Virus record (IMG/VR): IMGVR_UViG_3300025327_000176
Location: 1 to 20,519 of that record
Origin: a virus
Length of the DNA stretch: 20,519 nt
Reading direction: 5' to 3' (one strand)
The notes below the pieces were generated by a model. It worked only from the letters and a program-made list of their open reading frames with translations, was not told where the DNA came from and searched no databases. The position numbers and the translations under genes were made by a program. Shown here piece by piece: positions 7,763 to 19,810 of this stretch. Each line of letters begins with the position of its first letter. Within the stretch, counting starts at the first letter, position 1.

Positions 7763-8107
7763 TTAAGTCGCGACCGGCACGTTGCTACCGAGCAGCATCT
7801 TAACGGTGGCCGACGGGTTGGCCGCAGCTTCCACGGCGATGCCGACACATTGCTGCGCGGTGGCGGTCTTGTTCACCACCTTGTTGGTCGCGTCCCAGAA
7901 CAACCGGTCGCCGACACTGATCGCCAGCGCACTGGTCTTGCCGATCTCGACCACGCCTTCGGTGCAGAATGGGCCGGGGGTGCTGATCACCACGTCGGAT
8001 ACCGCCACGCCGAACAGCGCGGTGCCAAACAGATATCCGACACCGGAGGCCACGGCGGCTGCCGGGGTCAGGGTGAGGATGTCGCCTTCTTGAATATAAG
8101 TTTTCAT
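7763..8107 (-). CDS. Capsid cement/decoration protein (DUF2190 family)
   Basis: A 114-aa protein with the DUF2190 pattern: KTYIQEGDILTLTP at the N-terminus, a GVGYLFGTALFGVAVSD turn, GKTSALAISVGDRLFWD in the middle, and ATAQQCVGIAVEAA...ATVKMLLG at the end. Members bind the outside of capsids at threefold or quasi-threefold sites, in the way of lambda gpD. It lies straight after the major capsid gene, as expected. AGGAG is found 8 bases before ATG 8107. Confidence 0.88.
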   Translation of the reverse strand: MKTYIQEGDILTLTPAAAVASGVGYLFGTALFGVAVSDVVISTPGPFCTEGVVEIGKTSALAISVGDRLFWDATNKVVNKTATAQQCVGIAVEAAANPSATVKMLLGSNVPVAT

Positions 8108-8130
8108 TGCATGTTCTCCTGTGTTTCCCT

Positions 8131-8167
8131 CACCCTAACCCTCTCCCGCAAGCGGGCGAGGGGATGA
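8131..8167. repeat. REP-like palindrome between capsid and cement genes
   Basis: CCCTC-T-CCCGC-AA-GCGGG-C-GAGGG forms an imperfect hairpin (8139-8162) preceded by CACCCTAA. It is a typical host intergenic palindrome. It shares its CTCCCGC-AA-GCGGG core with the copy at 16812-16850, which is in the opposite orientation. No T-run follows on the coding strand, so it is not an obvious terminator for the operon. Confidence 0.8.
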
Positions 8168-8178
8168 AGGTTGGGTTT

Positions 8179-9519
8179 TTAAGCGCCTGGGTTTTTTTGA
8201 AGCGAGCGGTAGTCCAGCGGTGCCACACCTGCATCGATGCGCACCTTGAATTCCACGCCATCCACTTCCCAGCCGCCTTGCTGCTCCAGCGTCGGGGTAT
8301 GGTTGCCGTCGAGATAGCTGACTTCGATGGTGTCGGTGACACCGGCATCGGCAGCGCCGTACCAGGCCGTCGCAGAAGCGGTATCCAGACGCGCATCGGA
8401 GATCACGTCGAACAGGCCGCGCATGGTGTTGGGCACGGTGTTGTTCTTGGTGGATGCGCCGACTTCGAATTCGGAATTAGCCACCACGCGCGCCGCGCCT
8501 TCCAGCCCGACCGGGGTGATGATATGCGCGAGGCGGATGTTAAGCGGGCCGCCGCCGGTAGCTTGCCGAGCCATCGCGACGCGCACGTTATCCGTGCTGG
8601 CGGTGCTGAGCACCGTGCCGGTGCCGACCAGGTTGCCGTGGGTGGCGGTGTGGAACAGCGCCACGCCGTCCGCCATGTTCGGGTTGCCGGTCAATACCGC
8701 ATAGACCAGATCGCCGATGGTGCGGATCGCGGCGCGGCCCATGCGCATCGGGATCTTGCTGAAGGCGTCCAGATCGTCGTTGATGATGGTCTGGCGGGTC
8801 AGCGCGAACAGCTTGCCGTAGGTGGCGAGCTGCACGGTCTCGCCGCGTTCGCCGACGGTGGCGTATTTGTATTCCGCGCCATCCAGCACCTTGTCCAGCG
8901 CAGGGAAGGAATTGAGATCGAGACGCTTGCCGACCTTGAAGTCGCCGAGCGTGCCGACCGAGCACCATTTCTGGAAGGTCTCTTCGGATTCCTCAAAGCC
9001 TTTCAGCATGGCTTTTTCGGCGATATTGGACAGCAGCAGCGGGAAGTCGCTGGTGGAGGTGAAGGCGGCGGCCACTACATCCATCTTGCTCTTGCCGCGC
9101 ACGTCGATGCGCGCCTGGGCCAGACATTCGCGCGCCATGTCCATCAGCGAGTAGCCGCGATAGTGATTGCTGCGGTCGTCTTTTTCCATACCGGCGCGGG
9201 CCAGGATGGCCGACATCGCCAGGGTGCGGAACTTGTCGCGGCTGTCTTCCAGCGAGACGACATAACCGCCCGCGATCGGGGCAGACCCCTTGCCCAGGAG
9301 TGCCAGCAATTGGGTGTTGGCGCTCTGCGCAGTACAGGTCACGTCGTTGCTGCACGTGGCCAGCAAAGCGGGCACGCCCTCGACGCCGCTGAACTTGGCA
9401 AAAGCGGTTTGAATATCGCTGCGGCGCAGGGCTTCTCCGGCCAGCGTGGCGGCCTGGATTTCAGCTTCGGTTCTGGCGGCAGAGGTTGCGATTGCCGCCG
9501 TTTGGATTACATCAGGCAT
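8179..9519 (-). CDS. Major capsid protein, free form from an internal start (nested, same frame)
   Basis: Inside the fusion, ATG 9519 (Met239, MPDVIQTAAIATS) is preceded by AAGGAG with a 6-base spacer (9526-9531). That is a better ribosome-binding site than the one before the full-length start. The 446-aa product begins exactly at the change from the Ala-rich linker to the capsid domain. A capsid needs hundreds of capsid subunits but few proteases, so a separate, stronger start is reasonable. That both products are made is inference, comparable to the nested C/Nu3 genes of lambda. Confidence 0.6.
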   Translation of the reverse strand: MPDVIQTAAIATSAARTEAEIQAATLAGEALRRSDIQTAFAKFSGVEGVPALLATCSNDVTCTAQSANTQLLALLGKGSAPIAGGYVVSLEDSRDKFRTLAMSAILARAGMEKDDRSNHYRGYSLMDMARECLAQARIDVRGKSKMDVVAAAFTSTSDFPLLLSNIAEKAMLKGFEESEETFQKWCSVGTLGDFKVGKRLDLNSFPALDKVLDGAEYKYATVGERGETVQLATYGKLFALTRQTIINDDLDAFSKIPMRMGRAAIRTIGDLVYAVLTGNPNMADGVALFHTATHGNLVGTGTVLSTASTDNVRVAMARQATGGGPLNIRLAHIITPVGLEGAARVVANSEFEVGASTKNNTVPNTMRGLFDVISDARLDTASATAWYGAADAGVTDTIEVSYLDGNHTPTLEQQGGWEVDGVEFKVRIDAGVAPLDYRSLQKNPGA

Positions 9520-10233
9520 GTTGATCTCCTTGGAGGTTGCTGCGGCGGCTGCCGCATTGATTGCCCCGCCGGAACCCGGCAAGGATTTGAACCGCGCGGC
9601 AAGTGCCGTGCGATCAAAACTGGCGGCCAAGGGCATGGCCGTGACGATAGAATTAACGAAGTTTCCGGCCAGCGCCTCATCGGCGGTGTACCAGTGGTCT
9701 TCACCGTCGGTGAGCAGCGCGAGCATGTCTTCCGGAGTGCCGCCGGTCTTGGCAGCGTAGCTGGTGGACATCGCGCTGGCCCAGGTGTCGAGATAGTCGG
9801 CGAAGTCGCGCATGTCGGCGCTGTTGCCCATCGACATGCCCCAGGGCGCATGAATCATCAGCAGCGCGTTCTCGGCCATCTCCACGGTGTCGCCCGCCAT
9901 CGCGATCAGGCTGGCGATGCTGGCGGCGACGCCGTCGATCACCACGGTCGTGGCCGCCTTGTGGCGCTTGATGGCGTTATAAATTGCGATGCCGTCCGAG
10001 ACCGAACCGCCGAACGAGTTGATGCGCACCGTGATCTCGTCGGCATCCAGCGCCATCAGTTCCTGTACGAAATCTTTAGCCAGCACCGAATCGCCATACC
10101 AGCTTTCGCCGATGTCGCCGTAGATCAGGATCTCGGCGGATTTGGCTCCCTGCGCAACAGGTGCGCGGGCACGGATGCTGTACCACTTCAAAGAGGATTG
10201 AGGATTGAGGACTGAGGACCGGGTTGCTGGCAT
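8179..10233 (-). CDS. ClpP-type prohead protease fused to major capsid protein
   Basis: A 684-aa fusion. Residues about 33-200 form a ClpP-like serine protease: ILIYGDIG, INSFGGSVSDG, Ser105 in GVAASIASLIAMAG, His128 in LLMIHAPWG, and Asp176 or Asp179 before the YTADEAL helix. An Ala-rich linker (about 222-238) leads into a Mu gpT-like major capsid domain (about 239-684; e.g. GAEYKYATVGERGETVQLAT and ALTRQTIINDD). The protease would cut scaffold and capsid proteins during maturation. I use ATG 10233 (GGAG 8 bases upstream) rather than GTG 10242. Residues 5-17 come from a heptamer repeat (10193-10220). Protease-capsid fusions are known in lambda-like prophages; here internal initiation may also release the capsid part. 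Confidence 0.92.
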   Translation of the reverse strand: MPATRSSVLNPQSSLKWYSIRARAPVAQGAKSAEILIYGDIGESWYGDSVLAKDFVQELMALDADEITVRINSFGGSVSDGIAIYNAIKRHKAATTVVIDGVAASIASLIAMAGDTVEMAENALLMIHAPWGMSMGNSADMRDFADYLDTWASAMSTSYAAKTGGTPEDMLALLTDGEDHWYTADEALAGNFVNSIVTAMPLAASFDRTALAARFKSLPGSGGAINAAAAAATSKEINMPDVIQTAAIATSAARTEAEIQAATLAGEALRRSDIQTAFAKFSGVEGVPALLATCSNDVTCTAQSANTQLLALLGKGSAPIAGGYVVSLEDSRDKFRTLAMSAILARAGMEKDDRSNHYRGYSLMDMARECLAQARIDVRGKSKMDVVAAAFTSTSDFPLLLSNIAEKAMLKGFEESEETFQKWCSVGTLGDFKVGKRLDLNSFPALDKVLDGAEYKYATVGERGETVQLATYGKLFALTRQTIINDDLDAFSKIPMRMGRAAIRTIGDLVYAVLTGNPNMADGVALFHTATHGNLVGTGTVLSTASTDNVRVAMARQATGGGPLNIRLAHIITPVGLEGAARVVANSEFEVGASTKNNTVPNTMRGLFDVISDARLDTASATAWYGAADAGVTDTIEVSYLDGNHTPTLEQQGGWEVDGVEFKVRIDAGVAPLDYRSLQKNPGA
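9517..9531 (-). promoter_or_regulatory. Internal ribosome-binding site for free major capsid protein
   Basis: AAGGAG, six bases, then ATG, all within the coding sequence at the protease-capsid domain boundary. The residues encoded there (SKEIN) are in a linker where coding constraint is low, so the motif may be kept for translation. Confidence 0.65.
10193..10220. repeat. Four tandem 7-bp repeats at the 5' end of the protease-capsid gene
   Basis: GAGGATT, GAGGATT, GAGGACT, GAGGACC follow one another without gaps. They are translated on the minus strand as the Ser/Leu/Asn/Gln-rich start of the fusion protein. A second heptamer pair (GCAGGAT twice) lies at 10318-10331. Such 7-bp repeats look like host intergenic repeats. 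Confidence 0.75.
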
Positions 10234-10235
10234 GA

Positions 10236-10261
10236 CGCACACTCCACATGTTGAGTGTGCG
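10236..10261 (-). promoter_or_regulatory. 9-bp hairpin covering the Shine-Dalgarno of the protease-capsid fusion
   Basis: CGCACACTC and GAGTGTGCG pair perfectly across an 8-nt loop. On the mRNA the GGAG that serves ATG 10233 lies at the loop-stem junction, and the stem ends two bases before the ATG. Folding would hide the ribosome-binding site and lower translation of the full-length fusion. Regulation is inferred from structure only. Confidence 0.6.
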
Positions 10262-10272
10262 CAGTGTCGCGG

Positions 10273-10316
10273 GGCGGCTGTCTCATTTACAGGGGGAAGA
10301 TGAGACTATTTTTTAA
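10273..10316. repeat. 44-bp direct repeat with dyad, copy A (upstream of protease-capsid gene)
   Basis: Identical to 16877-16920 except for one base (A for G). It contains the dyad GTCTCAT-N13-ATGAGAC (10280-10286 and 10300-10306) with a C5/G5 tract in the loop, and an A/T run at one end. On the coding strand the A-run comes first and the dyad then sits about 40-50 bases before the protease-capsid start. I do not recognise the element; a regulator binding site is possible. Confidence 0.85.
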
Positions 10317-10343: not shown

Positions 10344-10532
10344 CTATCGATAAAGCTCGTTCCATTTCGGGTGATGGCGGCGATCACGCCGGGTGATGAC
10401 GACGCCACTGGTTGTGGTTGACGGCGCGATCGGTGGAGTAACAACGATATCTAAAATAAAACCGGCAGTCGCCACGGCCAGCGCGCCATACCCAAACCCC
10501 CGTACCGCGATCGATCTTGCATTCAGGCTCAT
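10344..10532 (-). CDS. Small hydrophobic protein of the tail-fibre cassette
   Basis: A 62-aa protein. The N-terminus (SLNARSIAVRGFGYGALAVATAGFILD) is hydrophobic and Gly/Ala-rich, enough for one membrane or hydrophobic core segment (about residues 12-32). The rest is Thr/Pro-rich and then basic (TRRDRRHHPKW). Its ATG overlaps the TGA of the 591-aa gene (ATGA), so it belongs to the same operon. Small proteins with a similar AVxGFGxGxxAV start accompany tail-fibre genes in other prophages, as I recall; the function is unknown to me. Confidence 0.65.
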   Translation of the reverse strand: MSLNARSIAVRGFGYGALAVATAGFILDIVVTPPIAPSTTTSGVVITRRDRRHHPKWNELYR

Positions 10533-12304
10533 GTGCGCGTCACCGTGACGGTTCCGCCCACCTCAGAGATTGTCTGCGACACATCCCCGGCGGTGCGCGA
10601 GGTCGGCGTGATTACCACCGGCGTGCCGGCGACAACCCCATCCTGCTTGGCCATGTCCATCAGGCGGGCGAGTTCAGTGGTGAGTTCGGTGCGCACGGCC
10701 TGGGCGTTCTGCGGCGCACTCGGCAACGCCTCCACGGTTGCTTCAATGGTATCTGTTGCCAGTTCTATTGCAGCTAGGCTAGCAGCCTGCCCCGCCGTAA
10801 GCCCGGACAGCAACTCAACTCCTGCGTTGTAATAAGCCCGCGACCAAACGTGCCGCCGTATCGAGCCGCGCCCATCCTCTGCATCGTAATCCCAATAGAT
10901 ATGCAGCACCATCCAGGTGTTGAAAGCGCCGATGGTCGTTGCGGCAGCGTATCTGCCGTTATGTCTCCCGCTGATATCTTCCAGTAGCGCCAGCGGTGTT
11001 GGCTGTGCTGCTTGCAGTGCGCCGGTTGCTGGGTTGAACCACTCCACCGTGCTTTCCTGATACGCCTCGAACTTGACCACGTTATTTCCCAATCCGGTCA
11101 GCGCCAGTCCGGTAGTAGGATGTTCGAGATTGATCGACCACGTTTCCGTGACTCCGAATACCACGGTAATCGCTCTGGCAATATCCGTCTCGCTTACCTG
11201 CCCCAGCGAGATTGTCCTTGTTGCGTAGAGCGTGACTGCCAGCGACAAATCTATCTCGGACGCTTGCGCCAGCGCAATTGTGATCGGAGTGGGCGATGAG
11301 ATTGTTTGTGCGGCATCTGTCTCGGTCACTTGCCCTACGCCGAGCGGCTGATTGGAGTACGCTTCCAGGATAACCTGCGCAACATCCAACTCTGTGACCT
11401 GACCAATCGCGATGGTCGTGGCGCTATACACGGCAATGGACTGCGCCAAGTCTGATTCTGCAACCTGCCCGATAACAAGGGTGACGCCCTGCAACGCTGC
11501 AATCGGGCGCGCAAGGTCTGTTTCGGTTGTTTGCCCGACTGCGATAGTTAGCGCGCCGAGAACCGTGGTGATAACTTGCGCGGTGTCTGCTTCACTGGCT
11601 TGCGCGACATCGCGGATAGCGTTTTCGCTTAGGGTGATGACTTGCGCGGTGTCGGTTTCTGTTGCTTGTCCTAGCGGCGGCGCACCATCGTTAAAAGTAA
11701 TGGTGGTTGAAAGCTCAACCCACGGGCACTCGGTGCCAGAACCACCCCCTGATGTTAACGGTAGATCGGTATAGTCCTGATTGTCTATCGCTAAATCAGC
11801 ACTAGCGCCTGCCGCCGGCGTTACGAATCGGTGCCCTAGCTCAATTACAACTCTGTCACCGGCCAGCGCGTTAACTGTGGTATGAGCAACGTTATTGACG
11901 ATGCGCGTTGCCCCAGTGGTAGTTGCCTCGATGTCAGCAACTAGCGGAATACGTAAGACACCTCTAACCGTGTCTGTGTCGCCTACCATGACACGTACAC
12001 CAACCGCAAGATACGCATCGGCGAGCGTGGAACTTTCTCTGACTATAATCGCAGCCGCTACTGTGCCCGATATGGTCTGGTTAACATCCAGTGGCGGTGA
12101 CACCCACTGGCGCAGGCACTGGTAGCCGATGTCATCAGTGGTACCCTGCCAGACCTGATTAACAAGAGCGACGCCGCCTGATCCAGTTTTAGTAAATGCG
12201 CTTGGATAACGTGCGAATGCAGGGGCGCTATACGCCCACCCCGTGCTAACGGTAGGTGCGGAAGGCGCTGAGCCAGCAACCGGCAGATAAAATCTAGTTG
12301 TCAT
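10529..12304 (-). CDS. Tail-fibre-associated protein with eight 22-23-residue repeats
   Basis: A 591-aa protein. Residues 1-200 form a beta-rich N-terminal domain (TTRFYLPVAGSAPSAP...). Residues 212-389 hold eight repeats of the form GQxxExDxAQxI followed by 9-11 mostly hydrophobic residues. Residues about 390-470 are a compact domain (ETWSINLEHPTTGLALTGLG), and the C-terminal part is helical (ELLSGLTAGQAASLAAIELA) with a Thr/Val-rich end. The repeats could form a stalk or beta-solenoid. ATG 12304 overlaps the tailspike stop by 11 bases, so the two are made together. A virion surface role is likely from context; no enzymatic motif is seen. Confidence 0.75.
   Translation of the reverse strand: MTTRFYLPVAGSAPSAPTVSTGWAYSAPAFARYPSAFTKTGSGGVALVNQVWQGTTDDIGYQCLRQWVSPPLDVNQTISGTVAAAIIVRESSTLADAYLAVGVRVMVGDTDTVRGVLRIPLVADIEATTTGATRIVNNVAHTTVNALAGDRVVIELGHRFVTPAAGASADLAIDNQDYTDLPLTSGGGSGTECPWVELSTTITFNDGAPPLGQATETDTAQVITLSENAIRDVAQASEADTAQVITTVLGALTIAVGQTTETDLARPIAALQGVTLVIGQVAESDLAQSIAVYSATTIAIGQVTELDVAQVILEAYSNQPLGVGQVTETDAAQTISSPTPITIALAQASEIDLSLAVTLYATRTISLGQVSETDIARAITVVFGVTETWSINLEHPTTGLALTGLGNNVVKFEAYQESTVEWFNPATGALQAAQPTPLALLEDISGRHNGRYAAATTIGAFNTWMVLHIYWDYDAEDGRGSIRRHVWSRAYYNAGVELLSGLTAGQAASLAAIELATDTIEATVEALPSAPQNAQAVRTELTTELARLMDMAKQDGVVAGTPVVITPTSRTAGDVSQTISEVGGTVTVTRT
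11138..11671 (-). repeat. Coding repeat array: eight GQxxExDxAQ units
   Basis: Units begin at residues 212, 234, 257, 279, 301, 324, 346 and 368 of the 591-aa protein. The core Gln-x-x-Glu-x-Asp is invariant in all eight; the first Gly is Ala in units 2 and 7. The DNA copies have diverged, so the array is not a recent duplication. Confidence 0.85.
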
Positions 12305-13832
12305 AATACGGTATCCACTTGGTCACGCCGCCAACGGAGATTTTGATCTTCCCTGCATAAGCGCCAAGCGCGGCAGTGCTTAATATCCCGTCTGCGGTTT
12401 CGGTAAGCATGAAATAATCGCCTACCACTTTCAACGCGGGAACTCGGTCATGAGGTATTGCCCCGCCAAGGGCTGACCCAAGATAATCGTAGAACAAGTC
12501 GGCACCGCTGGTAACAGATACGTTGATTGGATTGTCTGTTCCACTCAACCCATAAATCCTGCACCCGATAACTTTGCTACCATTGGCAACAATACCTGCC
12601 CCGCCTGCTGTCCCTTGTACCAGTAAGCCATAGAATGTACACGTCTCTACTGGCTTCCCTGCTGCACCTTTCTTGGCGCTGTCAAAGGTAACGCTACCGC
12701 CAATAGAAAAACAGCCAAAGAATTGATTGTCGTCTGCCGCCCAAATTTCCAAATTTGACCAAGAGCAGCTATAAAAGGTGCAGAAGCATGTATTAGTCCC
12801 TCCGTAGCTTGCGCTTGCGCCACTTAGCAACCACGTGCCAACCACTCTGCAACGGGTATACCTATTGGCATAAACGCAGTTGATTCGCGAGAAACCAGGA
12901 TTAGGGTAATCAGCTGAATTAGGGGTCAGTGATTCACAATGCCAGGCAAATCTGATGTCGCTGACATCTTTAGCCTGCACGACTATATTTTTATAATCGC
13001 AGGTAACTGTCGCGGCCTCGTAAATTACCGAACCTGCTCTGAATCGTCCATCAACGCATAGGTTATGTAGAAAGGCACCCCAGATGTCCTGCGTAGTATT
13101 TCCGATTACAGAGATGAACCGAATCGACTGCGGCGCACCAACATACACCAGCATCGTTCCTGTGGCGTGGTTGTCCGCAATGACGCTAGGTGCGTAATAG
13201 TATGGATAATATCCCCACAGGCTACCTACCCCAATATCCGCACCCGCCAGCCCTTTGTAGGATGTGGTCAGACTGATTGTCAGAGTGGAGAGATAAATTC
13301 TATTATCAAAATCAACGCGCGTAATACCTGGAGATGCGTTCATTGCAGCAACCGCCGCAATAATAGCTGCCCCATCGTCAGTGCCAAATACGAACTGCGC
13401 AGTAGTATCACTAATCGTTGACGATATAGCCATCTGCACGTGAGCACTATCAACGAACGCTACAATGGTCGTGTTGAACGAGGCATCTTTACTCAACCCG
13501 CCGGGTGCGGTGCTGTGATAAGCGACGTTTAATATCTTGCCAACATCGCCGACAGCAAAGGTGCCTGACGGAGCGGTGGCAATATCGCTGCCACTGGTAA
13601 CGGAGCAATCAAAAAACCATTTGCCATCACCAACTGCGCCGTAAGCTGATACGTTGATTGAGAATGTAGTTGAGCCACTACCACTGCCCTCTCCTGGCGG
13701 GCCTGGCGGGCCAACAGGGCCAACAGCGCCATCCGCTCCGGTAGCTCCTGTGGCTCCAGTAGCACCTGGAGCACCCGCAGCCCCAGGTAAACCATTCAGC
13801 CCAGCAAGAGCCGCTCTTAGCGACATATCCAT
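12294..13832 (-). CDS. Tailspike/tail fibre with collagen-like stalk and pectate-lyase-like beta-helix
   Basis: A 512-aa protein. Residues 11-49 are thirteen uninterrupted Gly-X-Y triplets (GLPGAAGAPGATGATG...), a collagen-like trimeric stalk. A Gly/Ser linker leads to FSINVSAYGAVGDGK (about 57-71), the opening motif of pectate-lyase-3 superfamily beta-helices found in tailspikes that bind or cut surface polysaccharide. Many short beta strands with Cys, Asn and Gly turns follow, and the C-terminus ends GKIKISVGGVTKWIPYYDN. No catalytic pair can be assigned, so depolymerase activity is open. The gene is more AT-rich than its neighbours, a sign of recent acquisition. Its place between portal and capsid genes is unusual. 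Confidence 0.85.
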   Translation of the reverse strand: MDMSLRAALAGLNGLPGAAGAPGATGATGATGADGAVGPVGPPGPPGEGSGSGSTTFSINVSAYGAVGDGKWFFDCSVTSGSDIATAPSGTFAVGDVGKILNVAYHSTAPGGLSKDASFNTTIVAFVDSAHVQMAISSTISDTTAQFVFGTDDGAAIIAAVAAMNASPGITRVDFDNRIYLSTLTISLTTSYKGLAGADIGVGSLWGYYPYYYAPSVIADNHATGTMLVYVGAPQSIRFISVIGNTTQDIWGAFLHNLCVDGRFRAGSVIYEAATVTCDYKNIVVQAKDVSDIRFAWHCESLTPNSADYPNPGFSRINCVYANRYTRCRVVGTWLLSGASASYGGTNTCFCTFYSCSWSNLEIWAADDNQFFGCFSIGGSVTFDSAKKGAAGKPVETCTFYGLLVQGTAGGAGIVANGSKVIGCRIYGLSGTDNPINVSVTSGADLFYDYLGSALGGAIPHDRVPALKVVGDYFMLTETADGILSTAALGAYAGKIKISVGGVTKWIPYYDN

Positions 13833-13864
13833 TAAGAGTTCCCCCCCGCGTTAGTCACCGAACC

Positions 13865-14335
13865 TTAGCTTGCGCGGAAGAAGCCTGCTGCCGCGATCTG
13901 TGCGGTTATATCGCCGCCGTTCGGGGTAACAACGAAATCGTGCTGCGTGCAGGGAACAATATTCGCGTCCGTGCCAGCAGTAGAATCGCTGTCATAGCTG
14001 ATGGTCAGGTCGGTCCAGTTGCTCCCCGCAGATACCGCAGTCCAGGTCTGGTCTGGAATATCCAGGTCAACGCGGTCGTTGGTGTCGTCCGGCGCGAAAG
14101 CCACGATGTCGGCATCGGTCAGCACCTTGCGCGCATAGCCGCTGTTGGTGGCTTCGGCGACGTTGGCAATGGTTTCAAGCGCGGCGTGGTCGTCAGCGTC
14201 AATACAGGCCGCGTCCGTAGCCGAAATTACCCACGCTGTAACTACCAGCACGGCGTTAGTCGGGTCGCTCAAGTCCACGCGATTGTAGAGTTCCGCCACA
14301 CGTCCCTTGGCAATGTTGAATACGAGATCAGCCAT
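13865..14335 (-). CDS. Conserved virion-type protein of unknown function (156 aa)
   Basis: It begins ADLVFNIAKGRVAELYNRVDL, a pattern I associate with a family of small phage proteins encoded beside tail-fibre genes. A mixed alpha/beta body (VLVVTAWVISATDAACIDAD) and an Asp/Thr-rich C-terminus (DSDSTAGTDANIVPCTQHDF) follow. The strong site GGAGGTG lies just before ATG 14335, and the gene overlaps the upstream one by 8 bases. Position suggests a tail-fibre attachment or decoration role; I cannot assign it further. Confidence 0.7.
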   Translation of the reverse strand: MADLVFNIAKGRVAELYNRVDLSDPTNAVLVVTAWVISATDAACIDADDHAALETIANVAEATNSGYARKVLTDADIVAFAPDDTNDRVDLDIPDQTWTAVSAGSNWTDLTISYDSDSTAGTDANIVPCTQHDFVVTPNGGDITAQIAAAGFFRAS

Positions 14336-14876
14336 GATTCACCTCCAGCGCACAGTTGTAGTAGTTCTGCATAACGTAGCCAGAAGGATTTTCCGCATCG
14401 GGGGATGTCTTCCCCACGTGCTTCTCGGTCACATGCTTGCGAGCAGCCTTGCCGTCACCGTCGTCCACCAACTTTTCGCCACAGTGTCGGCAATACCGGC
14501 CTGGTTCCTGTTTGATAGCAAACACAACATCGCCGTCAAGACCGTGAATTGTTATCTTCACGCCCTTGCGTACCAGCCAGCCTTCGGCTTCTCCGCCAGT
14601 CAGGAAGTTCTCTGTGAACTTCTGCTCCTCGTCCTGCGCAACCAGCTTGCTAAGCTGCACCTTCGCGCGCGGCTTGAGACTGGAGATGATCTTGCGCCTG
14701 ATAAGCTCGTCAAAGATCATCGCGGCAGAGATTGCGCCCTGCGGTAAAGTTCCCTGCTTTTGCTTCAGCTCGAAGAATGCAATCACCATCAAGGCATCGT
14801 CCGAGTTAAGCACGGCCTCCCGTGCGAGCACCTCGCCAGAAGGTGATATTGGGTCGTGGAATACTTTTATTTGCAT
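14328..14876 (-). CDS. Unknown phage protein with CxxC...H...H zinc-binding motif
   Basis: A 182-aa protein. It starts MQIKVFHDPISPSGEVLARE. Residues 25-80 look helical (DDALMVIAFFELKQKQ), and a small beta region around 95-122 includes VKITIHGLDGDVVFAI. Cys129-x2-Cys132 and His148-x4-His153 (CRHCGEKL...ARKHVTEKH) form a zinc-finger-like site. AAAGGAG is 7 bases before ATG 14876. It sits between the portal-coupled 36-aa ORF and the tail-fibre genes. It could be a moron or a regulator carried by the cassette. I do not recognise a family. Confidence 0.7.
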   Translation of the reverse strand: MQIKVFHDPISPSGEVLAREAVLNSDDALMVIAFFELKQKQGTLPQGAISAAMIFDELIRRKIISSLKPRAKVQLSKLVAQDEEQKFTENFLTGGEAEGWLVRKGVKITIHGLDGDVVFAIKQEPGRYCRHCGEKLVDDGDGKAARKHVTEKHVGKTSPDAENPSGYVMQNYYNCALEVNHG

Positions 14877-14891
14877 TTTGATTCTCCTTTA

Positions 14892-15002
14892 TTAAATGGT
14901 TGTTGATTCATTGACGGGCAAGGGCGAGGCGCGCAGAGATATGCAGTAGTCCACGTATTGCCGGTAGGTGCGGCCTGCTTTAGGGATGATGTAGGTGTTC
15001 AT
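14892..15002 (-). CDS. 36-aa ORF coupled to the portal gene
   Basis: The product begins MNTYIIPKAGRTYRQYVDYC and ends in SPLPVNESTTI. Its ATG overlaps the portal TGA (GAATGA), and the next gene follows by 15 bases. The Pro-x-Ala-Gly-x-x-Tyr-x-x-Tyr-x-x-Tyr-Cys spacing looks protein-like rather than random. I have seen very short ORFs of this style near phage structural genes but can give no function. Confidence 0.5.
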   Translation of the reverse strand: MNTYIIPKAGRTYRQYVDYCISLRASPLPVNESTTI

Positions 15003-16543
15003 TCGACAGCATCTTGTGCAGACGTATCCACCGGCAAGGGCGCGGCGGGCGGCGCCTGTTCGTTGGCCAGGTCGGAACCGAACACCAGCTCTTTCGCTTT
15101 GGCTTCGCTGCGAAATGCGGCGATCTGTTCGATGACATCGCGCGGATTCCCACCGCGTTTACGGATGACTTCGACTTCGGACGCGAAGCCATCCTGCACC
15201 AATTGATGCCAGGCGTTGGCTTCTTTGAGCGGGTCGATCCACGGCATGGATTGCCCGACGTACAGGCAATCGTCCTCGCTGTATTGCTCCAGGTCCCTGG
15301 GCATGGTCACCTGACCGGAAAGGTGCGCGGCCAGCACGAATTGCTGCCACACCGGCTGCACAAATTGGCCGACAAATTCGTCGGTGAGCACGGCGTAGTG
15401 GATCCACTGCTCGACCAGCTCCTGACGCTGAGCGGAGTAGGTGCCGTTGTAGTCGCGCGCCAGGCTGGAATAGCTGGCGCCGAGACCGGCGGCAATAGCG
15501 CGCAACTGCCCCTGGCGGAAGGTGACGACGTTCGGGTTAGGGCGGTTCGAATCGATCAGGCCGATCTCTTCGCCCATGCCGAGATTTTCGATGATGGTGC
15601 CGGGCGACAGGCTGAGTTCGCGCGGCAATGCGTTGCCTTCCGCGTCGCGGTCGGTGATGGTGGCCGGGTCGTACATATCCGGCGAGCCCTTGCGCACGTA
15701 GGCGGTGAGCGCGGCGGCGATCTTGGCGGCGATGCGCTCGCTTTCTTCGTAGTCCTTGATGTCTTCCAGCCGGGTGATGACGCTGGCGAATCCGGATACG
15801 CCGCGCATCTGGCCGATGCGGTCCACCGAAGCGAGTTGCAGCATGCGCGACGAGTCGATGTATTTGAGATCGTTGGAGCGGGTGAGCGTCAAGCTGCCAT
15901 TTGGGAAGGTCTTCCATACCCAGAAGCCGGTGGGCTTACCCCAGCTATTGCGCTGCACGCCCTGCTGGATGCCTTTGCCGGGATCGTGATAATCCATCGG
16001 CACCATGTCCGCCTCGAACATCTCCAGCGAGAACGGCACGCGCGTGCCGTGGTCGAGGAACGGCACCGGCCCGGTTAATGATTGCGTGAAGACTTCGCCG
16101 TCGCGGAACCAGCTCGCGGCCATCATGCGCTGCACCTTGGCCCAGTGGTGGCGCTGCGTCACTTCCGGGCACAGGCACCAGTCGCGCCACGCATCGCGCA
16201 GCGCCTTGGCATAGTCGGTATGGATGCTCCCGTCTTTCTTGCGCGGCTGCGGCTCGATGCCGATGCCGGTGGGCCCGACCACGTTGTTGACCAAGGTGCG
16301 CAATGCGCCGCGCGCGATGTCATGGTTCTGTTCCAGGTTGCGCGCCAGTGTGCGCAATGCCACCGCGCCCTGCTGCACTTGCAGATCGGGCGAGCGCTGG
16401 TCTTTGGAGAATTTGCGCAACCGCGACGGCTTGGCTGCTTCGTACTGGCTGAGCACGCGCCGCGCGTTGATGCGGCGCAACCCGGCGGACGGGCTGAGCC
16501 AGGCGACCAGTTGATCCAGTGGGTTCAATTCGACGCGGTTCAT
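14999..16543 (-). CDS. Portal protein (lambda gpB family)
   Basis: A 514-aa protein of the lambda-type portal family (Phage_portal_2), which forms the dodecameric ring at the packaging vertex. Seen: LRTLARNLEQNHDIARGALR, then LVNNVVGPTGIGIEPQPR, WCLCPEVTQRHHWAKVQRMM, a WFRDGEVF segment, HVFE-like FEADMVPMDYHDP, QMRGVSGFASVITRLEDIKD, and LGASYSSLARDYNGTYSAQR, all hallmarks of the family. Length is near lambda gpB (533). ATG 16543 overlaps the gpW-like stop (GTATGA). It is followed by a non-standard cassette, not by the protease. Confidence 0.95.
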   Translation of the reverse strand: MNRVELNPLDQLVAWLSPSAGLRRINARRVLSQYEAAKPSRLRKFSKDQRSPDLQVQQGAVALRTLARNLEQNHDIARGALRTLVNNVVGPTGIGIEPQPRKKDGSIHTDYAKALRDAWRDWCLCPEVTQRHHWAKVQRMMAASWFRDGEVFTQSLTGPVPFLDHGTRVPFSLEMFEADMVPMDYHDPGKGIQQGVQRNSWGKPTGFWVWKTFPNGSLTLTRSNDLKYIDSSRMLQLASVDRIGQMRGVSGFASVITRLEDIKDYEESERIAAKIAAALTAYVRKGSPDMYDPATITDRDAEGNALPRELSLSPGTIIENLGMGEEIGLIDSNRPNPNVVTFRQGQLRAIAAGLGASYSSLARDYNGTYSAQRQELVEQWIHYAVLTDEFVGQFVQPVWQQFVLAAHLSGQVTMPRDLEQYSEDDCLYVGQSMPWIDPLKEANAWHQLVQDGFASEVEVIRKRGGNPRDVIEQIAAFRSEAKAKELVFGSDLANEQAPPAAPLPVDTSAQDAVE

Positions 16544-16773: not shown

Positions 16774-16939
16774 CGGCGAACCCTTGTATGGTTTTATGCT
16801 TCTCTCGTTCGCCTCCCCTCCCGCTTGCGGGAGAGGATTGAGGAGAGGGCGCATTCAGGTTTGCCGAATTTACCGAGGCGGCTGTCTCATTTACAGGGGG
16901 AAGATGAGACTGTTTTTTAACCTGATACTTGCCGGCCAT
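16730..16939 (-). CDS. Possible 69-aa ORF overlapping repeats and gpW 5' end
   Basis: ATG 16939 has an excellent site (AAAAGGAG, 7-base spacer) and directly follows the Mor-like stop. The product begins MAGKYQVKKQSHLPPVNETA and then runs through the 44-bp repeat and the REP element into the gpW frame, giving low-complexity Ser/Pro/Gly residues. It may be what remains of a small gene interrupted by repeats. In the other 44-bp copy this frame has a stop, so the repeat itself is not conserved as coding sequence. Confidence 0.3.
   Translation of the reverse strand: MAGKYQVKKQSHLPPVNETAASVNSANLNAPSPQSSPASGRGGEREKHKTIQGFADEHCYRDAGQISGR
16812..16850. repeat. REP-like palindrome upstream of gpW
   Basis: CTCCCGC-TT-GCGGGAG (16818-16833) is a perfect 7-bp hairpin with AGGATTGAGGAGAGGG following. 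It is the same family as 8131-8167 but in opposite orientation. It lies in the gap between the Mor-like and gpW-like genes. Confidence 0.8.
16877..16920. repeat. 44-bp direct repeat with dyad, copy B (between Mor-like and gpW genes)
   Basis: It matches 10273-10316 at 43 of 44 positions, in the same orientation. The dyad GTCTCAT-N13-ATGAGAC lies at 16884-16890 and 16904-16910. It starts 22 bases after the Mor-like stop and lies about 100 bases before the gpW start. Confidence 0.85.
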
Positions 16940-16941
16940 TT

Positions 16942-17244
16942 TCATTCTCCTTTTAGCATCCGATAAAATTGCGCCTTGCTGATGCGATGTTTGGCGCATA
17001 CTTCTGTCCTGTTGCACCCATTAAAATCTTTCAGCACTTCTTCCTTGCGCGCCAGGCAATCTATTTTTGCAACATATACTTCACATCCTCCATCCTGTTG
17101 ACGATCAATGATGGCCCAGCGTTCAACGACCGGCCAGCGCAATTGCTGCTCGATCTGCTCGGCGCAGTTGTCACTGAATGAGTTTTCACCGATCGCATGT
17201 TGAACGGCTTTGAGGACAAATCTAAGCAACGCTTCACCGCTCAC
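16942..17244 (-). CDS. Mor-like transcription activator
   Basis: A 100-aa protein. The C-terminal half follows the Mor/C activator pattern of Mu-like phages: GGCEVYVAKIDCLARKEEVL, then KDFNGCNRTEVCAKHRISKA and QFYRMLKGE, i.e. a beta strand of the VYV(P/A)K type, an acidic F-x-G-x-N turn, and a helix-turn-helix (TEVCAKHRISKAQFYRML). The N-terminal half carries a dimerisation-like EQIEQQLRWPVVERW segment. I set the start at GTG 17244: it overlaps the terminase TGA (GTGA) and has AAGGGG 6 bases upstream. In Mu, Mor switches on the middle promoter. Here, inside the packaging operon, it may control late genes. The Pro of the usual VYVPK is Ala. Confidence 0.7.
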   Translation of the reverse strand: MSGEALLRFVLKAVQHAIGENSFSDNCAEQIEQQLRWPVVERWAIIDRQQDGGCEVYVAKIDCLARKEEVLKDFNGCNRTEVCAKHRISKAQFYRMLKGE

Positions 17245-19301
17245 TTGAATCCCCTTTGCGCCCAATCGTCCGTGGCGAAACTGCTGCGCGCTGCGCCAGG
17301 TTTGGCGGCGCGGCTGGGTACAGGCGTCTGCATTTTGCTCGGCACACCGGCGACCAGCTCGTCCAGCGTCAGTTCTTTGGGCTGACTGAACAGGTCTGCC
17401 ATCAGCGGCTGCACCTTGGCTTCCAGATCATCCCAGAATTTCGCGCTTTTTTTATGCAGATCGAAATATGTCTCCAGCCAGATGGTGTACACGCCGCAGT
17501 CCCAGGCCTCAACGCGCTTCCTGATCGCTGTCCAGGAGGACTCTTCGCCGCGCGTGGTGCGGCGGGTGGTGCGCGCTTCGCCGGTGAATTGGCGGAACCA
17601 TTCGTCGCTGAGTTCTTTACTGAAGTGGACGTAGCCGGGGCCCGGCTTGGTAATCTGCAAGCGGCCATGCAGTAGGTCTTTGGCGTGGTTTGTCCCGACC
17701 CACCACAGCACCAGGCCGTTTTTGCGCAGCCGCCCCTTCCAGTCGATATCTACTTTGCTGGCACCGTCCTTGATGTGTTTCTCGCGCCCGCTGCGCCCGC
17801 CGATGGCGAACACTTTACGGCGATTATGTTTGGCTACCCAGTTGTACACGGCGTGGGTGTTGTGGCCGCGCGTGTCGATCGCCGCGCCGGTGATGCGCAG
17901 GCGGGATCCGCTGGCGTGCATGAATTCGGTCTCGAACAGGAATTCGTCCATATCCGCCCACACCTCCTCCTCGTCCGGGTTGCCGAAAAAAATGCGGTGC
18001 GCGACGGTCCACATTTCGCAGCCGCGCCCATAACCCCACACGCCGCACTCCAGCCGGTTCGGTTGTGTGTCGATCCCAGCCAGCAGCAGCACTGCGCCGC
18101 GCGGCACGCGCTCCAGCAGGAACGGCTCGGCGCGCGCGCGCAGTTCGTTCTCGTCGGTCTTTTCGTATTCTTCGGCCCAGTAATCGCCGCGAGTGGTGTT
18201 GACGAAGGCCTGTAGCTTTTCTTTTTTGCCCTCGCCGCTTTCACGGTTGGCGGCAATGAATTCGCGCACGATGCCGGCCCATGATACGTTCGGGCTGTAG
18301 GCGCTCCAGGTGTGGAAAGCGACGCACGCCGGCGGGCGAATGATCTCGCCCTGCGGGTTGCGGAAGATGCCCTTGTTGTCCAGCGTGGTGCCATCATCGG
18401 CTTGATAGCGTCCGGCCGTGTCCAGGTCGATGCCCAGGTATTGCGCCTGCGAGATCAGCGCGCCGCAGTGCGGACACAAGTGGCGGACGGTTTCGGGATC
18501 GTCGTCATGCCACTTGAAACCGCTCATCTCTTCTTTGCCGCCCCACACCAGCGGATGGTAGCCGCCACACTCCGGACAGGGAATGCAGGGTTGCAGGAAA
18601 ATGTCCGCGTCGCGCTCGCGTTTTTCGATGTTGGAAAAACCCTTCAGCTTCGGCGTGCTGCCGAATACCATCTTGGGAAAGGTCGCGCCCTCGACGCGCT
18701 TGGCCGCCAGCGTGCCGGGATCGCCTTCCTTCTCGATGTTCGCATCGAACGCATCGTATTCGTCCAGCATCGCCACGTCCGCGCTCAGCCGCCGGTAGTT
18801 TTTCGCGGCCTTCCCGCCCTTGATGTGCGCCATGCTGCCGAGGAACTTCTTCGCCTGCAGCGTGTTGTCCTTGTCGCGTTTCAGGTAGGCAGGGAACACC
18901 ATTTCCATCACCGCCACGTCGCGCAGCATCGGGTCCAGTTCGGTCTTGACAAACTCGTCGCGGTCATCATCGGTCGGCTGCCACAACACCTGGTTGCGCC
19001 GCTTGTGTTGCGCGAAGTAGCCCATCGCCGCCAGCAGAATCTTGGTATATCCGACGCGAGCCGACTTGCGCCAGATGATCTCGCGGATATCGTCGTTGCT
19101 GATACACGCCATGATCGCGCGCTGGAACCACCACGGCGTCCACCGCTGCTCAACATAGGACGATTCGACGGACAGATAGAAATGCTCCCGCGCCCATTCG
19201 TCCAGCGTCATCGGCGGCGGCACCCCGAACGCACTCATCCCTCGCGCCAGGTGTTGCTCCAGCGTCGGGAGAATGAAACGAGTGTGCTCGGATAGATCCA
19301 T
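17241..19301 (-). CDS. Terminase large subunit (lambda gpA family)
   Basis: A 686-aa protein (lambda gpA is 641). The Walker A-type motif of this family is K79-SARVGYTK-87, followed by ILLAAMGYF. Walker B is VAMLDEYDAFD with Asp180-Glu181. A zinc-ribbon-like pair, C242-x2-C245 and C276-x2-C279, lies in the middle. The nuclease domain starts with LLAGIDTQPNRLECGVWGYG, where Asp411 matches the metal-binding Asp of gpA; a second Asp lies in ITGAAIDTRGH. The enzyme cuts concatemers and drives DNA into the prohead. ATG 19301 overlaps the small subunit stop (TGATG). The Gly-rich TTRRTTRGEESSWTAI stretch near the C-terminus is normal for the family. Confidence 0.96.
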   Translation of the reverse strand: MDLSEHTRFILPTLEQHLARGMSAFGVPPPMTLDEWAREHFYLSVESSYVEQRWTPWWFQRAIMACISNDDIREIIWRKSARVGYTKILLAAMGYFAQHKRRNQVLWQPTDDDRDEFVKTELDPMLRDVAVMEMVFPAYLKRDKDNTLQAKKFLGSMAHIKGGKAAKNYRRLSADVAMLDEYDAFDANIEKEGDPGTLAAKRVEGATFPKMVFGSTPKLKGFSNIEKRERDADIFLQPCIPCPECGGYHPLVWGGKEEMSGFKWHDDDPETVRHLCPHCGALISQAQYLGIDLDTAGRYQADDGTTLDNKGIFRNPQGEIIRPPACVAFHTWSAYSPNVSWAGIVREFIAANRESGEGKKEKLQAFVNTTRGDYWAEEYEKTDENELRARAEPFLLERVPRGAVLLLAGIDTQPNRLECGVWGYGRGCEMWTVAHRIFFGNPDEEEVWADMDEFLFETEFMHASGSRLRITGAAIDTRGHNTHAVYNWVAKHNRRKVFAIGGRSGREKHIKDGASKVDIDWKGRLRKNGLVLWWVGTNHAKDLLHGRLQITKPGPGYVHFSKELSDEWFRQFTGEARTTRRTTRGEESSWTAIRKRVEAWDCGVYTIWLETYFDLHKKSAKFWDDLEAKVQPLMADLFSQPKELTLDELVAGVPSKMQTPVPSRAAKPGAARSSFATDDWAQRGFK

Positions 19302-19810
19302 CAGGCAGCCTCACCCATTATTTGATCAACAACAACGGCATCATCCTCGACGGTCGCCTCATCATTCAGGTCTGATAACGACATCGCAGCCACCGTATTG
19401 CGCGCCTTCGCCACCTCTCCTGCGATCAGATCAATATCATCAGCCGTAAGTTGAGGAACGCGACGGCGCACCATCCCAGGTATTGCATCCAAAACGCCGG
19501 CAACCTTCGACGCCGCCTTGGTCAGTACCTCCTCGATCAGCGCAACCGGCGCCAGCTCGCCGCGCGTGACGGCGTTCTGCATCGCCACCTTGTCGGCCTG
19601 TTCACTGGCCAACCTTGCGCGCTCGGCCGCCAGTTCACCCACGTTCGCACCACCTCTGCCAGCGGCCTGCTCTCGCAAGCGGCGTATATATGCAACACGA
19701 ATATCACCCAGTTCAACAGTTTTCCAATCTAAATTGATCTGCTCCAGAAGCTCACTTACAGCTTGCTGGCTTAAATCAAGATGATCTGCAATATCCTGTT
19801 GACTCAACAC
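19301..19810 (-). CDS. Terminase small subunit (Nu1 type)
   Basis: A 169-aa protein. Residues 1-45 form a winged helix-turn-helix (LSQQDIADHLDLSQQAVSEL), as in Nu1, which binds cos-region DNA. The middle is the typical LAAERARLASEQADKVAMQN helix followed by AVTRGELAPVALIEEVL, and the C-terminal segment contacts the large subunit. I accept GTG 19810 because AAGGGG lies 8-9 bases upstream. The downstream large subunit overlaps its stop. Confidence 0.93.
   Translation of the reverse strand: MLSQQDIADHLDLSQQAVSELLEQINLDWKTVELGDIRVAYIRRLREQAAGRGGANVGELAAERARLASEQADKVAMQNAVTRGELAPVALIEEVLTKAASKVAGVLDAIPGMVRRRVPQLTADDIDLIAGEVAKARNTVAAMSLSDLNDEATVEDDAVVVDQIMGEAA

Follow-up and report, generated by a model that had tools for sequence, protein, structure and literature searches.

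A candidate internal translation start for a nested scaffold-capsid protein in fused ClpP-like protease-capsid genes of phages

A gene for a fused ClpP-like prohead protease, scaffold and major capsid protein was analysed in the window, a stretch of 20,519 bases from a virus record. Judged from sequence comparison, this gene probably yields two in-frame proteins that end at one stop codon, namely the complete fusion and a nested scaffold-capsid protein begun at an internal ATG, and the two would co-assemble. The comparison with relatives strongly supports the view that the internal start lies far above chance and is kept as a translation-start signal.

Initiation at the first ATG would give the protease-scaffold-capsid chain, and initiation at the AAGGAG-ATG in the linker would give a scaffold-capsid protein that corresponds to the HK97 capsid protein before processing. 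The two forms could co-assemble via their shared scaffold and capsid parts, so that the procapsid would hold a minority of protease copies, which would then remove the scaffold. We infer from these signals that initiation takes place in cells, that the short form outnumbers the long one, and that the two co-assemble and the scaffold is cleaved off. The single-chain fusion alone would mean one protease per capsid subunit, a paradox that a conserved internal start would remove.

Fusion gene and internal start in the window

The coordinates of the features are given in Table 1. The fusion frame lies on the minus strand (stop codon 8179-8181) and starts at GTG 10242 or ATG 10233, with 687 codons when counted from the GTG. 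It belongs to a known family, as the whole protein passes the cut-off of NF045540 (NCBIfam, 'ClpP-like prohead protease/major capsid protein fusion protein') with 681.3 bits against 475 (residues 36-686). Pfam matched CLP_protease at residues 52-201 and Phage_capsid_4 at residues 368-684; the C-terminal HK97-type capsid domain is thus present (PF25209, E-value 1.2e-53). S105 and H128 (numbered from ATG 10233), which we take to be the ClpP-type catalytic serine and histidine, were invariant in 44 aligned sequences.

An AlphaFold2 model of the window fusion, built from 44 sequences (mean pLDDT 84), shows a folded ClpP domain up to about residue 214, pLDDT below 50 at residues 219-251, and then long helices followed by more folded parts. 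The helical region presumably serves as scaffold. Among the 50 Foldseek matches listed for the model, those with names were ClpP-type proteases. At the N-terminus, the window fusion carries an extension with a near-tandem TCCTCAATCCTC repeat (10180-10233), and its close relatives have short MPQAN-type N termini.

Table 1 Features of the window considered in this study
Feature	Position	Strand	Basis or remark
Small terminase	19301-19810	minus	Packaging region
Large terminase	17241-19301	minus	Packaging region
Portal, lambda-family	14999-16543	minus	Packaging region
9-bp hairpin that pairs GAG of the first GGAG	10236-10261	minus	Folding; not seen in L006, L063, L065 or L066
GGAG ahead of first ATG	10242-10245	minus	Sequence
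Fusion gene: ClpP-like prohead protease, scaffold and major capsid protein	8179-10233	minus	NF045540, PF00574, PF25209, phrog_133
ClpP-like protease domain	9637-10137	minus	NF045540 match, alignment, AlphaFold2 model, Foldseek
Disordered (low-confidence) linker from protease to scaffold, holding the internal start	9469-9591	minus	AlphaFold2 pLDDT
Internal Shine-Dalgarno (SD) AAGGAG	9526-9531	minus	Sequence, SD energy; kept in relatives
Internal ATG (M242 from GTG or M239 from ATG 10233)	9517-9519	minus	Sequence, relatives
Putative nested gene encoding scaffold plus capsid (446 aa)	8179-9519	minus	Frame and relatives
Predicted helical scaffold, delta-domain-like, limits approximate	9253-9468	minus	Model helices 256-279, 287-296, 302-313
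Major capsid domain, PF25209 Phage_capsid_4	8191-9141	minus	Pfam
Decoration protein	7763-8107		After fusion gene (8179-10242) in the listed packaging region

The AAGGAG-N6-ATG that a preliminary description had reported inside this frame was confirmed at 9531-9517; it is in frame, and among the gene's 52 in-frame ATG, GTG and TTG codons it has the best SD energy, -8.5 kcal/mol. It had also been placed exactly at the domain border. The start does lie between the domains, but Met 239 sits in mid-linker, about 25 residues past the ClpP domain and 17 ahead of the first scaffold helix, in the stretch with pLDDT below 50. Since the internal Met lies in the linker before the scaffold helix, the nested product would consist of scaffold and capsid. 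As to whether the border of homology coincides with this Met, two profile approaches gave differing positions: NCBIfam matches to four S78-type fusions began 1-20 residues ahead of the internal Met, and a purpose-built profile began a median of 45 residues ahead of it.

The junction start in relatives

Relatives were collected from viral contigs, bacterial genomes and phage records. The ClpP-type set of 373 sequences was reduced to 345 two-domain ORFs, of which 334 were near-complete, and clustering at 90 % identity left 204 representatives; the counts exclude five ORFs with the protease alone and four with the capsid alone. The set in which a related capsid is fused to an unrelated protease of the S78/HK97 type went from 57 to 54 members, and 18 further ClpP-type ORFs met there were kept out of the ClpP counts. 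All four S78-type fusions tested belong to NF045541.

Relatives keep the internal SD. An in-frame junction ATG preceded by 4 nt or more of SD match was present in 192 of the 204 non-redundant ClpP-type fusions (at least 5 nt, 97) and in 48 of the 54 S78-type fusions (at least 5 nt, 30), and it was still found in 35/37 after thinning to 45 % identity. By the motif rule, the junction ATG has an absent or weak SD in 16 of 258 genes by our own reading, one of which (L381) is strong by energy. Where no site was called (18 genes), we read one GTG after AAGGAG-N6 and one TTG after AGGAG-N6 (L095 and L119), which suggests that the start-codon function is kept where the residue has changed.

The junction SD-ATG is present in the phages F10, mEp213, mEp460, Fels-1, Hafnia yong2 and Gifsy-2. 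Among actinophage fusions, only ScienceWizSam and Microbacterium phage Yasuo were looked at, too few to count; the former has a strong GGGGG-type SD before M-P and the latter a weak junction SD (-5.8). None of the 10 capsid-only ORFs (four in the first set, six in the second) was usable for comparing the N-terminus with that of stand-alone capsid genes, because they were cut by a contig end, had an interrupted frame or carried a different N-terminal part. In a Microbulbifer plasmid record (L373, 1546-3524), the fusion gene has a frame change in the protease part and is annotated as two overlapping genes.

Controls for chance and protein constraint

When the codon order of the junction was shuffled, the signal was expected in 57.3 ClpP-type genes (maximum 74 in 100 shuffles) against 192 observed, and in 14.2 S78-type genes (maximum 21) against 48. 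Synonymous shuffles gave 128.3 (maximum 142 in 200 shuffles) and 35.8 (maximum 44) for the same two observed counts, and the count with SD of at least 4 nt was above every synonymous shuffle in each of three subgroups. When 5 nt or more of SD were required, the 40 EFxxMP-type genes (the coliphage and Pseudomonas group with F10, mEp and Gifsy-2) exhibited no excess over synonymous shuffles (12 vs 9.5). Their SD spacing is long (9-10 nt), and the evidence in this group is thus the weaker SD, the 9-10 nt spacing and the dip in RNA structure.

In 165 of the 258 genes (35.8 expected), the junction holds the strongest in-frame SD-ATG of the gene; in 77 of 203 ClpP-type genes it lies elsewhere. An accessible strong SD-ATG was observed at 128 of 258 fusion junctions; of 185 further long ORFs in these loci, 9 had one at any internal position. 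The 41-nt folding energy was -4.6 kcal/mol at the internal start codon vs about -10 elsewhere (240 genes), and with the protein fixed, the fold at the internal start was -4.81 vs -6.08 for synonymous shuffles (P = 5e-11).

These results bear on the alternative that the capsid protein arises only by ClpP self-cleavage of the full fusion, with the internal SD unused or a relic of genes that were once separate. The protease does retain its catalytic residues, the flexible linker beside it could be cut, and HK97 has separate protease and capsid genes (PMC8508860). A relic would decay, however, and the SD persists down to 45 % identity despite changes of frame and peptide: it occurs in all three frames (mostly two of them), and the tetrapeptide before the internal Met takes 190 distinct forms in 240 genes. 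On the capsid-domain tree, the SD frame changed at least 45 times, the protease type at least 11 times and SD presence or absence 15 times (45-46, 11-14 and 15, respectively, when weak nodes were collapsed). Together with the excess over synonymous shuffles and the structure dip, this makes self-cleavage alone, or a relic, quite improbable.

The SD-like stretch could instead be a translational pause at the domain border that aids folding and starts nothing, in keeping with its place in a linker between two domains. What speaks against a pause is the start codon that accompanies the SD at start-like spacing. This ATG is replaced by GTG and TTG in two genes, and other junction codons generally show no excess; in ClpP-type genes, SD of at least 5 nt preceded 102 of 578 junction ATGs (protease ATGs, 38/1537; capsid-domain ATGs, 31/2144) vs 9/423 GTG and 2/164 TTG codons. 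The internal Met is moreover followed by Pro (40 %) or Thr (21 %), 61 % together, vs 2.5 % and 3.5 % (6 % together) after other Mets. We regard a pause as very improbable, and a translation start remains the preferred reading of the junction signal.

First start, hairpin and relative strength of the two starts

The preliminary description had proposed that a first start with its GGAG locked in a 9-bp hairpin and a strong internal start together set a low protease to high capsid ratio. The hairpin is real, with arms CGCACACTC (10261-10253) and GAGTGTGCG (10244-10236), an 8-nt loop and an energy of -14.8 kcal/mol when folded in isolation. However, it covers only the GAG of the GGAG (10245-10242), the first G being in the loop. 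Its 101-nt context folds at -28.8 vs -21.0 +/- 3.1 for shuffles (z -2.5), and perfect 9-bp stems with loops of 3-10 nt occur just twice on the minus strand of the window.

As a designed ratio setter, this combination is supported by the relatives in its internal start and not in its hairpin. The unpaired probability of the window's first SD is indeed low (0.17), but this is only the 40th most sequestered among 252 first starts. No such hairpin was found before the first ATG of the four closest distinct relatives examined, which have AGGAG (L006), GGAGG (L063), AAGGA (L065) and GAGGAG (L066) there. It recurs only in L007 and L064, which are loci of the same virus and give no independent evidence because, across the part that matched, their protein shows 100 % identity. 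Other first starts are sequestered by folds of their own (L115, 0.02; L104, 0.11; L063, 0.22), and unpaired probabilities below 0.2 were seen for 47 of 252 first vs 25 of 240 internal starts. Across the family, first and internal SDs did not differ in unpaired probability (0.42 vs 0.41, P = 0.82, 235 pairs). As a matter of speculation, transcription starting downstream of the dyad at 10255-10316 might leave the 5' arm outside the mRNA.

The hairpin was therefore rejected as a conserved control element, given its absence from these four relatives and the equal accessibility in the family, and the full hairpin model is unlikely. The hairpin may lower use of the first start in the window virus; it is not the mechanism of the whole family.

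The comparisons with first starts used 235 or 252 of the 258 genes and a first start chosen by best SD, a choice that favours the first start. A smaller difference between the two starts was observed: in 235 pairs, the SD energy was -6.96 at internal vs -6.09 at first starts (P = 2e-5) and the local fold -4.74 vs -6.71 (P = 6e-8). Internal starts resemble in this those of the next downstream gene (SD -6.50, fold -5.28, n = 226). The internal start thus appears real, and these values argue modestly for its being stronger than the first. With a slightly stronger SD and a weaker fold, a modest bias of capsid over protease is plausible even without the hairpin of the window.

Comparison with known systems

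In-frame internal starts in head-protease genes are classical, the examples being lambda C/Nu3 and Mu I/Z; the nested lambda genes were reportedly described by Shaw and Murialdo in 1980. A fused protease-scaffold-capsid gene is likewise said to have been reported for Gifsy-2 by Effantin in 2010. As in lambda and Mu, the window gene has an in-frame SD start after the protease domain, which would yield a C-terminal product without the protease. In those phages, however, the nested product is the scaffold alone and the capsid gene is separate, whereas here the internal frame includes PF25209 and the product would be scaffold plus capsid.

For the Mu-like phage PaMx73, the scaffold is described as having its own internal start and SD (PMC4378225). 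In HK97 the scaffold (delta) domain is fused to the capsid protein, as in the window gene, and is taken off by the protease, and in phage MD8 protease, scaffold and capsid lie within one gene (both PMC8508860). HK97 gp4/gp5 differ from the window gene in being two separate genes with their own starts, compared with a single open frame (8179-10242). The fusions of Gifsy-2, F10, MD8 and mEp213 belong to the same NF045540 family as the window gene.

The main text of the MD8 paper (PMC8508860) makes no mention of an internal start ('internal' and 'Shine' occur 0 times), and searches of open-licence papers, judged by titles and abstract openings, turned up none that treats such a start in fusions of this kind. 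Nested head-protease genes and fused protease-scaffold-capsid genes are each known; within the literature so covered, their combination, with an inner product of scaffold plus capsid, appears new.

We lean slightly towards a broader view, in which all protease-scaffold-capsid fusions of tailed phages are nested pairs, the capsid comes mostly from the conserved internal start, and the protease has been exchanged repeatedly around that start. The exchange is supported by the protease-type changes on the capsid tree. If all fusions are nested, the single-product annotation would be wrong across the whole family. A second, unannotated protein is predicted in the NF045540 and NF045541 fusions examined, and in a well-studied phage the candidate internal start is codon 221 of the Gifsy-2 gene. 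A head module may in this way swap its protease with capsid expression kept.

Other features of the window

The window carries a minus-strand packaging region of the lambda type. Between its portal and fusion genes, spike/collagen-like and unknown genes fill 10344-14876; in the relatives L006, L063, L065 and L066, by our own reading, the portal ends directly upstream of the fusion gene. Rfam and tRNA scans gave no match.

A 62-nt element with the dyad GTCTCAT...ATGAGAC is present in two copies that are 85 % identical, one upstream of the fusion gene (10255-10316) and the other near the start of the head operon (16859-16920). The latter adjoins an ORF (16942-17265, minus strand) with a weak PHROG match to a late transcriptional activator (E-value 0.001). 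The dyad was found upstream of 17 of the 251 fusion genes checked, and the element is possibly a late-gene operator. In addition, a palindromic repeat of the CCCTCTCCCGC type, which presumably resembles one known from bacterial genomes, has two matches near phage gene borders (8126-8149 and 16827-16850).
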